From positions 310,001 to 374,000 of the forward strand of contig OX044355.1 in assembly GCA_943846595.1 (NCBI GenBank): 64,000 bases of DNA, read 5' to 3'. The position numbers and the translations under genes are program-made. Every line of letters starts with the position of its first letter. Within the stretch, counting starts at the first letter, position 1. The DNA is from an uncultured Polaribacter sp. (GTDB lineage: Bacteria > Bacteroidota > Bacteroidia > Flavobacteriales > Flavobacteriaceae). Under the pieces are notes generated by a model. It was given only the letters and a program-made list of their open reading frames with translations. It was not told the DNA's origin and made no database searches. Shown in pieces: positions 31,036 through 34,510 of this stretch.

Positions 31036-31060
31036 AGGAATTAAAATTCCTATTGAACAA

Positions 31061-31092
31061 AAAACCCGTTAGAAATTCTAACGGGTTTTTTT
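31061..31092. terminator. Bidirectional terminator between converging genes
   Basis: Hairpin AAAACCCGTTAG / CTAACGGGTTTT with A-run on one flank and T-run on the other. It separates the metalloprotease gene from the minus-strand metal cluster, whose last gene ends 6 bases further on. Confidence 0.85.
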
Positions 31093-31097
31093 ATTAC

Positions 31098-31346
31098 TTA
31101 ATGGTGCGCATCATGTTGCTGCTCCACTTTTTTTCGAAGTTTCATTTTGCATACTGGGCAGGTGCCTTTTTTCTCGTAGGTCTTTTCTTCCTCACATTTC
31201 ATGGGGCATTGGTACTTTATTTTTTCTGCATGCAAATGTTCCTTCTCCTGCACTTTGTCGTGTTCTTTCTTTGCCGAGGTTTTACAAGAGGTAATTAAAA
31301 TACCGAATATAAAAATAATCGCTAAAGTGAATAGTCTTTTTTTCAT
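31098..31346 (-). CDS. Heavy-metal-binding-domain lipoprotein
   Basis: 82 residues. The lipoprotein signal is MKKRLFTLAIIFIFGILITSC. A Cys-rich segment follows, YQCPMKCEEEKTYEKKGTCP and then VCKMKL, which is the heavy-metal-binding domain also found at the N-terminus of copper ATPases and CusB-like proteins. The C-terminus is His-rich (HDAHH), and there is another His pair before the domain. It should bind Cu or a similar soft metal at the cell envelope. It is the last gene of the four-gene minus-strand cluster and starts 10 bases after the HMA-domain gene. Confidence 0.88.
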   Translation of the reverse strand: MKKRLFTLAIIFIFGILITSCKTSAKKEHDKVQEKEHLHAEKIKYQCPMKCEEEKTYEKKGTCPVCKMKLRKKVEQQHDAHH

Positions 31347-31356
31347 TGTTATTCTT

Positions 31357-31752
31357 TTATTGTTTCTTTTCTTGTTTTTTTAAGCTTCCCTCATGATCTA
31401 ATACAATTTCTTCATCACGATACTTACAACATGGATGAACCGAATTGTAAGCCTCATCGGTAGCTTTAATTCCTTTTACATCATGACCAACTTTTAAAAT
31501 ATTTTTCTGAATCGTTGTTACCGCTGTCTTACGCTCGTCAACAATTAGGTTTAATTGGTGTGTTTTGATGTCCCAAAGCGCAAATTTTACGCCTTTGGTT
31601 TTCAAAGCAGCGGTTTCAATTCGCTTTTTACACATGCCGCAAATACCATCTACTTCAAAAGCAACTTTTGCATTTTTATTCTTTTTTACTTCTTGTGCTT
31701 GTGCTGATATTCCAATCAACATAAAACTGAACAATACGATAATTTTTTTCAT
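31357..31752 (-). CDS. Periplasmic heavy-metal-associated (HMA) domain protein
   Basis: 131 residues. The Sec signal peptide ends near residue 20 (SAQAQ). A single HMA-like domain follows with the metal pair C38 and C41 in GICGMCKKR. The pattern GICGMC departs from the usual GMTCxxC. A conserved later HPCCKYRDEE adds a Cys pair. It could act as a periplasmic metal carrier or reductant for the neighbouring receptor. It starts 7 bases downstream of the TonB receptor gene and 10 bases ahead of the HMBD gene, so all are in one transcript. Confidence 0.87.
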   Translation of the reverse strand: MKKIIVLFSFMLIGISAQAQEVKKNKNAKVAFEVDGICGMCKKRIETAALKTKGVKFALWDIKTHQLNLIVDERKTAVTTIQKNILKVGHDVKGIKATDEAYNSVHPCCKYRDEEIVLDHEGSLKKQEKKQ

Positions 31753-31759
31753 TTGATAG

Positions 31760-34027
31760 TTATTTAATTTTAAATCGCAATCCTACATACACCATACGCC
31801 CAAAAACAGGAGCATACACAATGGTAGTGTCAAAGTACTCCCCAAAAGGAGAATCACTCGCTAAAATAGGATTTTTTTGTTGAACATTCGTTATGTTTTC
31901 ACCTCCGAAATAGATTTCAAGTTTTTTGGAAAACACTCTTGTTATTTGTGTATTCAATAATTGAAAGGAATCTGAAAACGCTGGTAATTGATATTGAATT
32001 GGATTGGTGCTTGTATCTGGCAAACGCTGTTTTCCAATACTATTAAAAGTAAGGTCGACTTTCCATTGCGCGCCATTGTCTTTTGCAAATGTTTCATAAG
32101 ACAAGTTTGCGAAAAATCTATTTTTTGGTTGCAAAGGTTTCTGCAAAGTTCCTTTTTTATAATCCGTTGCAATATCGAAATACTTATAGGCTGTTCTTAA
32201 TGTTAAACTTTCTGCAAAATCGTAATTCAATTCTAACTGAAAACTATTCGCAATGCTTTTGCCTTCTAAATCGTAAAAAGAAATCGCTTGAGGATCTTCC
32301 CAATCTACAACTACTTGGTTGCTAAAATCCGTTCTATAGAAATCAAAAGTAAGGTCTCCTTTCTTATCAAAAAGATTGAATTTTTGCAGGTATGAAATCC
32401 CATAATTCCAAGCAATTTCTGGGTTCAATCCGTAAATAGCACCGTCCGTATTGTCAATATTAATTTGACGTGTACTTGCAAACAATTGCTGATTTTCTGC
32501 AAAAATATTTGCACTTCGCTTTCCCCTCCCTGCCGATGCTCTAAAAACACCTTTTCCCCATGGAGTATACCGTAGATGCAAACGCGGTGTTAAAAAAGTA
32601 CCCAATAGATTGTGGGTATCTATTCGCAAACCAGCGGTCATACTAAAATCTTCTAAATTATCAAAAGCATATTCAAAAAAAGCACCTATTGAGTTTTCTT
32701 TTCGATCATAATTGGACGCATTGACCAACTCATCATAGCTGTCGTAGGTGAAATTAATCCCTGTTTTGAACTTACTTCTTGTATCTCCAATGATCGAATT
32801 GAATAAAAAATTAGAGTACATGCTTTGGTGCTGAATGTCATATCGATTCACTCCAAAATAAGAATCTTGTTGGTGATTGCTGTAGGCCAATTGAAATCCG
32901 AAACTTTGGTAAGGCATTTCTGGAAACACATAGCCTAATTTTGCAGAGGTTTCAAAACGTTTGGTATCAATTTCACTTCCCCAGACTTCGTTACCCGTTA
33001 GTGCAGTGAAACCTAGACTTCGTTGATCTGTTTCTGGATTAAAATTAATTTCACCCGTTTGCTTTTCATCGTTTAAAAAACGAACATTTATAAAACTCAC
33101 CCATCCTTTTTCTGCATCGGTATACTGCCAGCGGTTCATTACATTTATCTGATTCGCCAACGGCGCATCTAAAAAATTATCTTTATTCTTATCAAACTTC
33201 TGTCCTCTGTAATTCCCATGCACATACAATCCAGTTTGCCATTTCTCTGAAATACGCTCATTAAAGTGCATGTTCAATTCTAACCGACCGTTCACAGAAC
33301 TGTAGGCATTTAAAAAGAATTCATTATCCGAAAAAGGTTTGACCAATTCTGCATTTATTTGCCCAGAAATACTTTCATACCCATTCACAACACTCCCAGC
33401 TCCTTTGGTGATTTGAATACTCTCTACCCAAGTTCCTGGGGTAAATGTCATCCCAAAAGCTTGTGCTGCTCCTCGAATGGATGGAATGTTTTCTTGAGAA
33501 ATCAGCAAATAAGGACTTGTTAACCCCAGCATTTGAATTTGTTTTGTTCCCGTTAAGGCATCCGAAAAACTCACATCTATGGAGGGGTTTGTTTCAAAAC
33601 TTTCTGCTAAATTACAGCAGGCTGCTTTCAAAAGCTCATCAGAATTTACTGTAAAAACATTGGTCGTTGCATAGAACGATTTCTGTGTAGCTCGTTTTTT
33701 GCTCCGAATCACAACTTCTGTGGTGGCAGTTTCTTCGGTTAAAAAATGATGAACTGGTACTAGATTTGTAATTGAGAGTGTATCGGTTCTGTAGCCAATA
33801 TAACTTACAATTAGTTTTTTGTAGGAGGATTTATATGGAATTGAAAACCAACCTTGGGCGTCCGTTGTCGTGCCTATCTTGGTGTTTAACCATCGAACGT
33901 TTACACCATAAACACCCAAATTATCTTTTGGATTGTTTTTATCCATAAGCATTCCTCGATAGTTTTGTTGAGAAAATAACAACAATGGAAATAACAGTAA
34001 AATACTGTTAATAAAATATTTTTTCAT
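31760..34027 (-). CDS. TonB-dependent receptor, probably for a metal or metallophore
   Basis: 755 residues. It has a signal peptide (about 1-19), a carboxypeptidase-regulatory-like domain (22-100, with YRGMLMDKNN and IGTTTDAQGWFSIPY), a plug domain (about 130-230) and a C-terminal 22-strand barrel ending in VYVGLRFKIK. The plug-domain segment AACCNLAESFETNPSIDVSF has a CC pair, found in the copper-linked receptors of this group. It transports a ligand across the outer membrane with energy from TonB. The neighbouring HMA, HMBD and HYC_CC_PP genes make copper the best guess. Confidence 0.93.
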   Translation of the reverse strand: MKKYFINSILLLFPLLLFSQQNYRGMLMDKNNPKDNLGVYGVNVRWLNTKIGTTTDAQGWFSIPYKSSYKKLIVSYIGYRTDTLSITNLVPVHHFLTEETATTEVVIRSKKRATQKSFYATTNVFTVNSDELLKAACCNLAESFETNPSIDVSFSDALTGTKQIQMLGLTSPYLLISQENIPSIRGAAQAFGMTFTPGTWVESIQITKGAGSVVNGYESISGQINAELVKPFSDNEFFLNAYSSVNGRLELNMHFNERISEKWQTGLYVHGNYRGQKFDKNKDNFLDAPLANQINVMNRWQYTDAEKGWVSFINVRFLNDEKQTGEINFNPETDQRSLGFTALTGNEVWGSEIDTKRFETSAKLGYVFPEMPYQSFGFQLAYSNHQQDSYFGVNRYDIQHQSMYSNFLFNSIIGDTRSKFKTGINFTYDSYDELVNASNYDRKENSIGAFFEYAFDNLEDFSMTAGLRIDTHNLLGTFLTPRLHLRYTPWGKGVFRASAGRGKRSANIFAENQQLFASTRQINIDNTDGAIYGLNPEIAWNYGISYLQKFNLFDKKGDLTFDFYRTDFSNQVVVDWEDPQAISFYDLEGKSIANSFQLELNYDFAESLTLRTAYKYFDIATDYKKGTLQKPLQPKNRFFANLSYETFAKDNGAQWKVDLTFNSIGKQRLPDTSTNPIQYQLPAFSDSFQLLNTQITRVFSKKLEIYFGGENITNVQQKNPILASDSPFGEYFDTTIVYAPVFGRMVYVGLRFKIK

Positions 34028-34089
34028 GATTTTAGATTTTAAAAATTAATAATTACTTCTTAAAAAAAGTTGAAGAATTACATCTAAAA

Positions 34090-34494
34090 TCAAATAAGGA
34101 AACTTTGGTATAAAATCTGATAATTTAAAGGAATGTCTGGTGGTGAGGAGTCTTTAAAACCAAATTCTTTGGTGGAAATTTCTTGAAATAAGTCTTTGGT
34201 CGTCTTTATGGTAGAAATAAATTCAGGCTGTCCTTTTAGCACCAGGGCAACATCAGCACTTTGCTGCAACTCGTGTTGACCTTCAATTTTATGAATCTCG
34301 TCTTTACAACAACTTTTTTTCGTTGTTTTTGAGAGTGCATCCATCTCCATTCCACAGCCATCGGTATGCCCCACATAGGATACATCCACTAAAAAATCGC
34401 CACAATAATGTTTCTCTACCGTGAAAGAAAGGGTTGAGAACAGCACTAAAAAGGCTAAACTAATGGACGCTATTTTAAGAAGTGATTTTTTCAT
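34090..34494 (-). CDS. HYC_CC_PP family protein
   Basis: 134 residues with an N-terminal hydrophobic signal (1-27). The family signature is complete: HYC at about 29-31, then CGM, the CC pair in KSCCKDE, and the PP pair near the C-terminus in SSPPDIPLN. Family members are small, usually next to a TonB-dependent receptor and HMA proteins, as here, and are thought to be periplasmic or membrane-linked metal-handling factors; the biochemical function is not known. It is the first gene of the cluster and has its own -7 element. A gap of 62 bases separates it from the receptor gene. Confidence 0.85.
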   Translation of the reverse strand: MKKSLLKIASISLAFLVLFSTLSFTVEKHYCGDFLVDVSYVGHTDGCGMEMDALSKTTKKSCCKDEIHKIEGQHELQQSADVALVLKGQPEFISTIKTTKDLFQEISTKEFGFKDSSPPDIPLNYQILYQSFLI

Positions 34495-34502
34495 TTAAAA
34501 AG

Positions 34503-34510
34503 CAAATTTA
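34503..34510 (-). promoter_or_regulatory. -7 element of the metal cluster
   Basis: TAAATTTG on the minus strand, exact TAnnTTTG, 8 bases before the ATG at 34494. The short distance means a very short leader. No operator was recognised. Confidence 0.5.

Follow-up and report, generated by a model that had tools for sequence, protein, structure and literature searches.

What would a TonB-dependent receptor carry, and in which direction, when it is encoded directly ahead of a small HMA-domain protein? The question is raised by four minus-strand genes in a 64,000-nucleotide stretch of DNA (hereafter the window; contig OX044355.1, positions 310,001 to 374,000, assembly GCA_943846595.1) from the 2.31-Mb single-contig genome of an uncultured Polaribacter sp. 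of the Flavobacteriaceae, which encode an HYC_CC_PP family protein, the receptor, the HMA protein and an HMBD lipoprotein. An earlier note on this DNA had described the four as an envelope copper uptake or handling system that passes metal from receptor to HMA protein to HMBD lipoprotein. What stands of that proposal, by inference, is the uptake of a soft metal, probably copper, by a receptor with the HMA protein as a near-obligate and sometimes fused partner. On balance, and with modest confidence, we favor an outer-membrane copper acquisition operon consisting of a TonB receptor and a dedicated periplasmic HMA acceptor, with the metal, the direction, the acceptor role and the delivery to an oxidase all deduced from sequence comparison.

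Conservation of the receptor and its HMA partner

Amongst 199 genomes sampled from the family, 125 possess a receptor ortholog (nearly all with one strong match each, at 48–65% identity) and 125 possess an ortholog of the HMA protein (E up to 1e-18). Both were present in 122 genomes, the receptor only in three, the HMA protein only in three and neither in 71; in the three receptor-only genomes the receptor frame contains a stop, is partial or lies at the end of a contig, one case of each. The receptor of a congener is 69% identical to the window receptor, which is at most 77% identical to named Polaribacter receptors among the matches listed, and a genome from within the genus (G131) has no receptor ortholog. 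For gene order, 173 receptor loci (one of 174 gave no receptor frame) were reduced to 164 by deduplication at 95% receptor identity, and five of 99 loci without a receptor were dropped before counting. An HMA gene is present in 160 of the 164 loci and immediately follows the receptor in 159, an order beyond chance. Genes were called mechanically, and at least two HMA genes (L093 and L138) recovered by the ortholog search were missed in this way; of the four loci without a called HMA gene, those of G157 and G040 have the gene in place according to the same search.

The two outer genes of the window cluster are distributed differently. Only six (pattern search) or seven (blast cluster) of the 164 loci have an HMBD lipoprotein after the HMA gene, and nine receptor genomes, all ≤1.9 Mb (G192 by elimination), lack an HYC_CC_PP gene. 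Because the receptor–HMA pairing is near-obligate while the HMBD and HYC_CC_PP genes are not, the conserved unit is the receptor plus the HMA protein, and the four-gene form in the window is a minority layout. The idea of a four-gene system as the evolutionary unit was dropped on these counts, and the same rarity leaves the HMBD lipoprotein unsupported as the end of a metal relay.

The plug cysteine pair and the receptor clade

Within the plug motif around LLKAACCNLSESFETNPSIDV, the vicinal pair Cys137-Cys138 was found in all 164 family receptors and in 38 of 40 distant receptors, while His270 was kept in 164 of 164 and 36 of 40, respectively; the 40 distant loci, together with 20 paralogue loci, were hand-picked from phylum-wide receptor matches. 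In a receptor tree (quick method, midpoint root), a fully supported branch splits 57 rows with the pair (CC receptors) from 22 without it (non-CC), and the two distant receptors that lack the pair cluster with the non-CC paralogues, such that the plug pair marks one receptor clade. One of these two, L256, has neighbors that appear thioredoxin-like by eye. In the 20 non-CC paralogue controls, neither the pair (0/20) nor a match to HMA, HYC_CC_PP or a copper ATPase within four genes on either side (0/20) was found. The CC clade with an HMA partner is present in 22 sampled Bacteroidota families (tree rows), and amongst the 38 distant CC receptors HMA lies beside or is fused to the receptor in 25. 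A deep CC subgroup (L243, L247 and L253) has the motif ACCDLAGCF and no HMA match nearby; upstream of L243 lies a 115-residue protein that resembles, by eye, a degenerate HMA domain with one cysteine.

Five of the 40 distant loci (L219, L220, L221, L222 and L223) have the HMA domain fused to the receptor N-terminus. Based on a family-built profile, L219 and L220 possess two HMA copies each, one copy in each being above the Pfam gathering score; L221 and L223 score 23.9 and 24.4 bits, just below that score of 24.8, and L222, unlisted for Pfam HMA at E up to 0.001, was found by the family profile only. The fused receptors form two groups on separate branches of the tree. Because the N-terminus of a TonB receptor is periplasmic, the fused domain should work at the inner mouth of the receptor.

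Both core proteins and both accessory proteins are rich in cysteine. In the HMA protein, C38 and C41 were conserved in 163 of 163 sequences and C108 and C109 in 162 of 163 each, and in HYC_CC_PP the pair C62-C63 was conserved in 151 of 151. The receptor pair lies ~30 residues after a probable Ton box (TEVVI, read by eye) and, in a profile alignment to solved receptors, falls at the PVQNLKDVLKEVPGV stretch of Cir, in the loop before the NLKDVLKEVPGV helix, though this part of the alignment is weak (17 bits). We take the corresponding position in Cir to be periplasm-facing, which the predicted model did not confirm: with 62 aligned sequences the barrel was mostly good, the plug (135–228) had a predicted local distance difference test score (pLDDT) below 50 and no geometry of the cysteine pair was drawn from it. 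If the pair does face the periplasm, it is possible that it represents a periplasm-side copper exit site and not a copy of the OprC site. The prediction for HYC_CC_PP (mean pLDDT 62, predicted template modeling score 0.28) was unfit for a fold search.

Probable copper uptake, its alternatives and known systems

A P-type ATPase lies upstream of the receptor in 13 of the 164 loci. The earlier remark that the system lacks an obvious ATPase is accurate for the window cluster and for its genome, where a profile search found no TIGR01511 (copper) ATPase above cut-off, but is not a hallmark of the system. In at least nine genomes (G001, G027, G063, G075, G090, G101, G121, G129 and G172, among the matches listed) a TIGR01511 ATPase above cut-off ends <60 bp before the receptor match; nine of the 13 adjoining ATPases were scored against this model and four were not, and two scored as whole proteins reached 588 and 596 bits (cut-off 397). 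The position of these copper-class ATPases, immediately ahead of the receptor in some relatives, points to copper as the metal. The single E1-E2 ATPase of the window genome passes general heavy-metal and cadmium-family models and fails the copper model. An extended copper block occurs at L134:5609-13934, with a multicopper oxidase, a DUF305 protein, a copper ATPase, the receptor, the HMA protein and a cysteine-rich DUF326 protein. Regulator-like proteins with an N-terminal HMA-like CxxC are encoded next to a copper ATPase (L059:3375-4004; C-terminus AraC-type by Pfam) and next to the receptor (L238:5718-6284; AraC-type by eye), and represent a candidate Bacteroidota copper regulator.

Genome size bears on the direction of transport. 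Amongst the genomes ≤1.9 Mb (n = 27; sizes rounded) the receptor is kept in 20 and a TIGR01511 ATPase in one, compared to 105 and 113, respectively, of the larger genomes (n = 172). Uptake rather than resistance is suggested by the small genomes keeping the receptor in the near absence of this ATPase, and the simplest reading would be copper nutrition of the periplasm, both the metal and its inward direction being conclusions from sequence.

In the mechanism proposed for copper acquisition, the TonB-powered receptor would bind extracellular copper in free or weakly chelated form. In this class of receptors the plug opens with energy from TonB, and copper would be released through the plug toward the CxxC of the HMA protein, which would take the metal at the periplasmic mouth of the receptor and carry it to extracytoplasmic users, among which the only heme-copper oxidase of the genome (one COX1) is the most plausible. 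Thiol-rich accessory proteins, HYC_CC_PP joined in this lineage by the HMBD lipoprotein, would buffer or guard periplasmic soft metal. A more tentative extension, on which we would place rather less weight, is that the plug pair itself takes Cu(I) during transport and passes it by ligand exchange to the HMA CxxC, tethered to the receptor in some lineages, and that such a thiol relay through the outer membrane, unlike anything in OprC, CrtA or MbnT, is spread over many Bacteroidota families.

Several observations weigh against copper acquisition as read here. No HMA match occurs within six genes of 13 of the 38 distant CC receptors. In the window genome, a non-CC TonB receptor outside the 20 controls (L031:10844-13030) has a MerT-HMA protein three genes away, and the copper-importer reading has been graded slightly lower because of this proximity. 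The 27 small genomes include several incomplete ones, and copper ATPases of the CcoI type may score too low for the TIGR01511 cut-off. Only a minority of loci supports the copper label, since ATPases adjoin the receptor in only the 13 noted above and there is no overall co-occurrence of receptor and TIGR01511 ATPase (64 of 125 receptor genomes compared to 50 of 74 others). G426, a genome that lacks COX1, has a CC receptor (L241) with HMA and a CopA-like ATPase as neighbors, and with COX1 in 283 of 296 phylum genomes co-occurrence is uninformative on the oxidase link. Binding of Zn, Hg, Ag and Cd by HMA domains and vicinal dithiols is also known, and no model used here separates copper from these metals for the window proteins. 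HYC_CC_PP also occurs at a locus with a cadmium-family ATPase. Lastly, the receptor has no OprC motif: the plug reads ACCNLAES, with no methionine four residues after either cysteine, and the only barrel methionine column above half (M297) is not two residues after a conserved histidine, leaving no HxM.

The same genes might instead form a copper-stress operon, with proteins that detect surplus copper in the periplasm, bind it or assist its export, and with a receptor that acts at the surface or in regulation and does not import a nutrient. A copper ATPase, a multicopper oxidase and a DUF326 protein beside some copies would fit this role, as would the HYC_CC_PP and HMA-MauE genes that accompany RND efflux genes in the window genome. 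TonB receptors, however, import, and the pair is kept by the small genomes that lack TIGR01511 ATPases, which, with the missing overall co-occurrence, makes stress defense unlikely. Another soft or borderline metal (zinc, nickel or cobalt) or a metal-bearing small molecule could use the same import architecture, as the chemistry of HMA domains and cysteine pairs is not copper-specific and the best NCBIfam matches of the HMA protein, both below cut-off, score near-equally for CopZ (26.5 bits) and the mercuric MerTP (26.4 bits). The nine scored ATPases adjoining the receptor are all of the copper class (the other four of 13 being unscored) and mercury and silver are not nutrients; a different cargo is accordingly considered improbable. 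A role of the HMA domain as a sensor or gate of the receptor, like the N-terminal signaling domains of some siderophore receptors, would suit the five loci where it precedes plug and barrel, but is very hard to credit with HMA a separate protein in 160 of 164 loci and no sigma or anti-sigma gene recognized by eye in the 40 largest neighbor clusters, for which no dedicated screen was made.

Copper acquisition by the receptor–HMA pair can be compared with several known systems, for the published ones as far as the available parts of their descriptions go. OprC binds copper via CxxxM-HxM, and the likeness is that of a TonB receptor with a copper-linked plug cysteine, bound in OprC and proposed here; Cys143 of OprC lies ~68 residues after the Ton box compared to ~30 for the pair (PMC8610252). 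The dedicated HMA partner further separates the present receptor from OprC. The OprC model TIGR01778 (cut-off 472.45 bits) did not match the window receptor at E up to 1, and in the whole genome no place exceeded the cut-off, the window receptor not being among the seven places listed. CrtA (BfrG), the copper-chelate receptor of B. pertussis, supplies copper to heme-copper oxidases and shares with the window receptor a small operon and a copper supply (proposed here); in the available part of its description it is mostly beta- and gammaproteobacterial, with no conserved cysteine or methionine and a PepSY_TM gene downstream in most loci, whereas here Cys137-Cys138 is invariant and the downstream gene encodes HMA (PMC12914433). 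The system is set apart from OprC and CrtA because neither description fits and TIGR01778 is unmatched, and would count as a new form of TonB-dependent copper uptake by its proposed way of working, not by family membership. A flavobacterial receptor of Bizionia argentinensis (G2EC70; numbered near the CcoG and NosL genes) has been assigned to copper uptake via an OprC-like CxxxM-HxM, a likeness judged by description only (PMC11213822).

MerP, CopZ and other periplasmic HMA chaperones share the HMA domain with CxxC, while the HMA protein here reaches the cut-off of none of the listed NCBIfam models of this kind, has an additional C-terminal PCC and is tied to a TonB receptor. Relative to Cop/Cus efflux, the cluster is four genes without a copper-class P-type ATPase or RND pump, with RND genes elsewhere in the genome. 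In SusCD systems, a partner lipoprotein catches the ligand outside the cell. XusA-XusB likewise pairs a TonB receptor with a dedicated lipoprotein catching ligand outside, according to the part of the account available (PMC12574912), whereas the partner proposed here would be a periplasmic HMA protein receiving metal inside. Searches of the open-licence PMC literature listed no paper recognized as describing this operon and none mentioning HYC_CC_PP. The available part of a Riemerella ZntR transcriptome study names many TonB receptors by locus tag only, and no link to the present receptor was made (PMC11960050).

Very few receptors are known to bring copper across the outer membrane, and those described in two accounts (PMC12914433, PMC8610252) are all proteobacterial. 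At least 581 stretches encoding relatives of the receptor were found in one scan, not all of them necessarily from the CC clade. If copper acquisition is correct, a large set of ‘TonB-dependent receptor’ annotations could receive a name, and the operon could be targeted genetically to study the copper nutrition of marine heterotrophs. It would also be one of the rare TonB systems whose periplasmic acceptor is nameable from genomics alone.

The window cluster, its signals and accessory genes

All four reading frames of the cluster were confirmed (Table 1), with intergenic gaps of 62, 7 and 10 bp, and the family calls of the earlier note hold, each protein scoring above the cut-off of its model: HYC_CC_PP (NF047658, 103.6 bits; cut-off 28), the HMA protein (PF00403, 32.1; 24.8; CxxC present), the HMBD protein (PF19335, 39.1; 23.6) and the receptor, for which CarbopepD_reg_2, Plug (27.6; 23.9) and the TonB barrel (75.2; 27) all exceeded the Pfam gathering score. 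The top Foldseek matches of the receptor were BtuB, PirA and PfeA.

Table 1 Features of the receptor–HMA cluster in the window
Feature	Coordinates	Strand	Description
HYC_CC_PP family protein	34090..34494	-	134 aa, N-terminal hydrophobic helix; conserved H29-x-C31, C47, C62-C63, P118-P119; accessory
TonB-dependent receptor	31760..34027	-	755 aa; carboxypeptidase-regulatory-like domain, plug with invariant Cys137-Cys138 (KAACCNLAESFETNPS), beta-barrel; core
HMA protein	31357..31752	-	131 aa; signal-peptide-like N-terminus (by eye), CxxC (C38, C41), C-terminal PCC (C108-C109); core
HMBD lipoprotein	31098..31346	-	82 aa, lipobox by pattern; optional
TANNTTTG promoter-like element (TAAATTTG)	34503..34510	-	ends 8 bases before the HYC_CC_PP start codon
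Terminator-like hairpin, 15 pairs	31059..31091	-	scan-listed for + strand; T run on both strands; between cluster and convergent metalloprotease gene

The single -7 element that had been reported for the cluster is in place. The TANNTTTG element occurs ≤120 bases upstream of HYC_CC_PP in 106 of 151 loci (compared to 95 of 755 single-base shuffles) and was recovered by upstream footprinting, which returned no defensible regulator box; a sigma-70 promoter scan gave 10 sites against 13.4 expected. Because of the short distance between the element and the start codon (window 34494-34510), the cluster mRNA may be nearly leaderless. Similar spacing occurs in some close relatives (e.g., L139 and L144). 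The hairpin is weak evidence by itself because four terminator-like sites were found with 2.8 expected.

In 151 of the 164 loci HYC_CC_PP precedes the receptor by one to five genes, and both it and the HMBD lipoprotein look accessory. The window genome has two further HYC_CC_PP copies, each immediately preceding ACR_tran (RND) pump genes and one adjoined by a cadmium-family ATPase, and for this reason HYC_CC_PP is unlikely to be copper-specific and was dropped as such a marker. Given also its absence from nine receptor genomes, HYC_CC_PP is not specific to this system. One of these regions, L031 (G000:C1:1632000-1646000), is a metal island with the cadmium-family P-type ATPase, HYC_CC_PP, an ACR_tran (RND) gene in several frames, an HMA-MauE-like protein, the MerT-HMA protein, a Fur-family regulator and the non-CC TonB receptor. 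A very similar HYC-RND-OEP-HMA-MauE block at L032 (G000:C1:2294500-2308500), with the RND gene in one frame, lies near resolvase-like and DNA methylase-like genes (by eye) and is possibly mobile. A plasmid search for the cluster gave no match.

Around the receptor loci of the family, an HMA-MauE membrane protein is encoded nearby in 61 of 164. Genes for exosortase XrtF and its associated membrane protein precede the receptor in 76 of 164 (e.g., L038:7045-8017; not in the window), an adjacency that is probably plain synteny and possibly a functional link. Elsewhere in the window genome, a 142-residue HMA lipoprotein-like protein (L056:1342-1770) is encoded beside a CtaA-like gene (heme A synthase, by eye), a possible link to cytochrome oxidase assembly.

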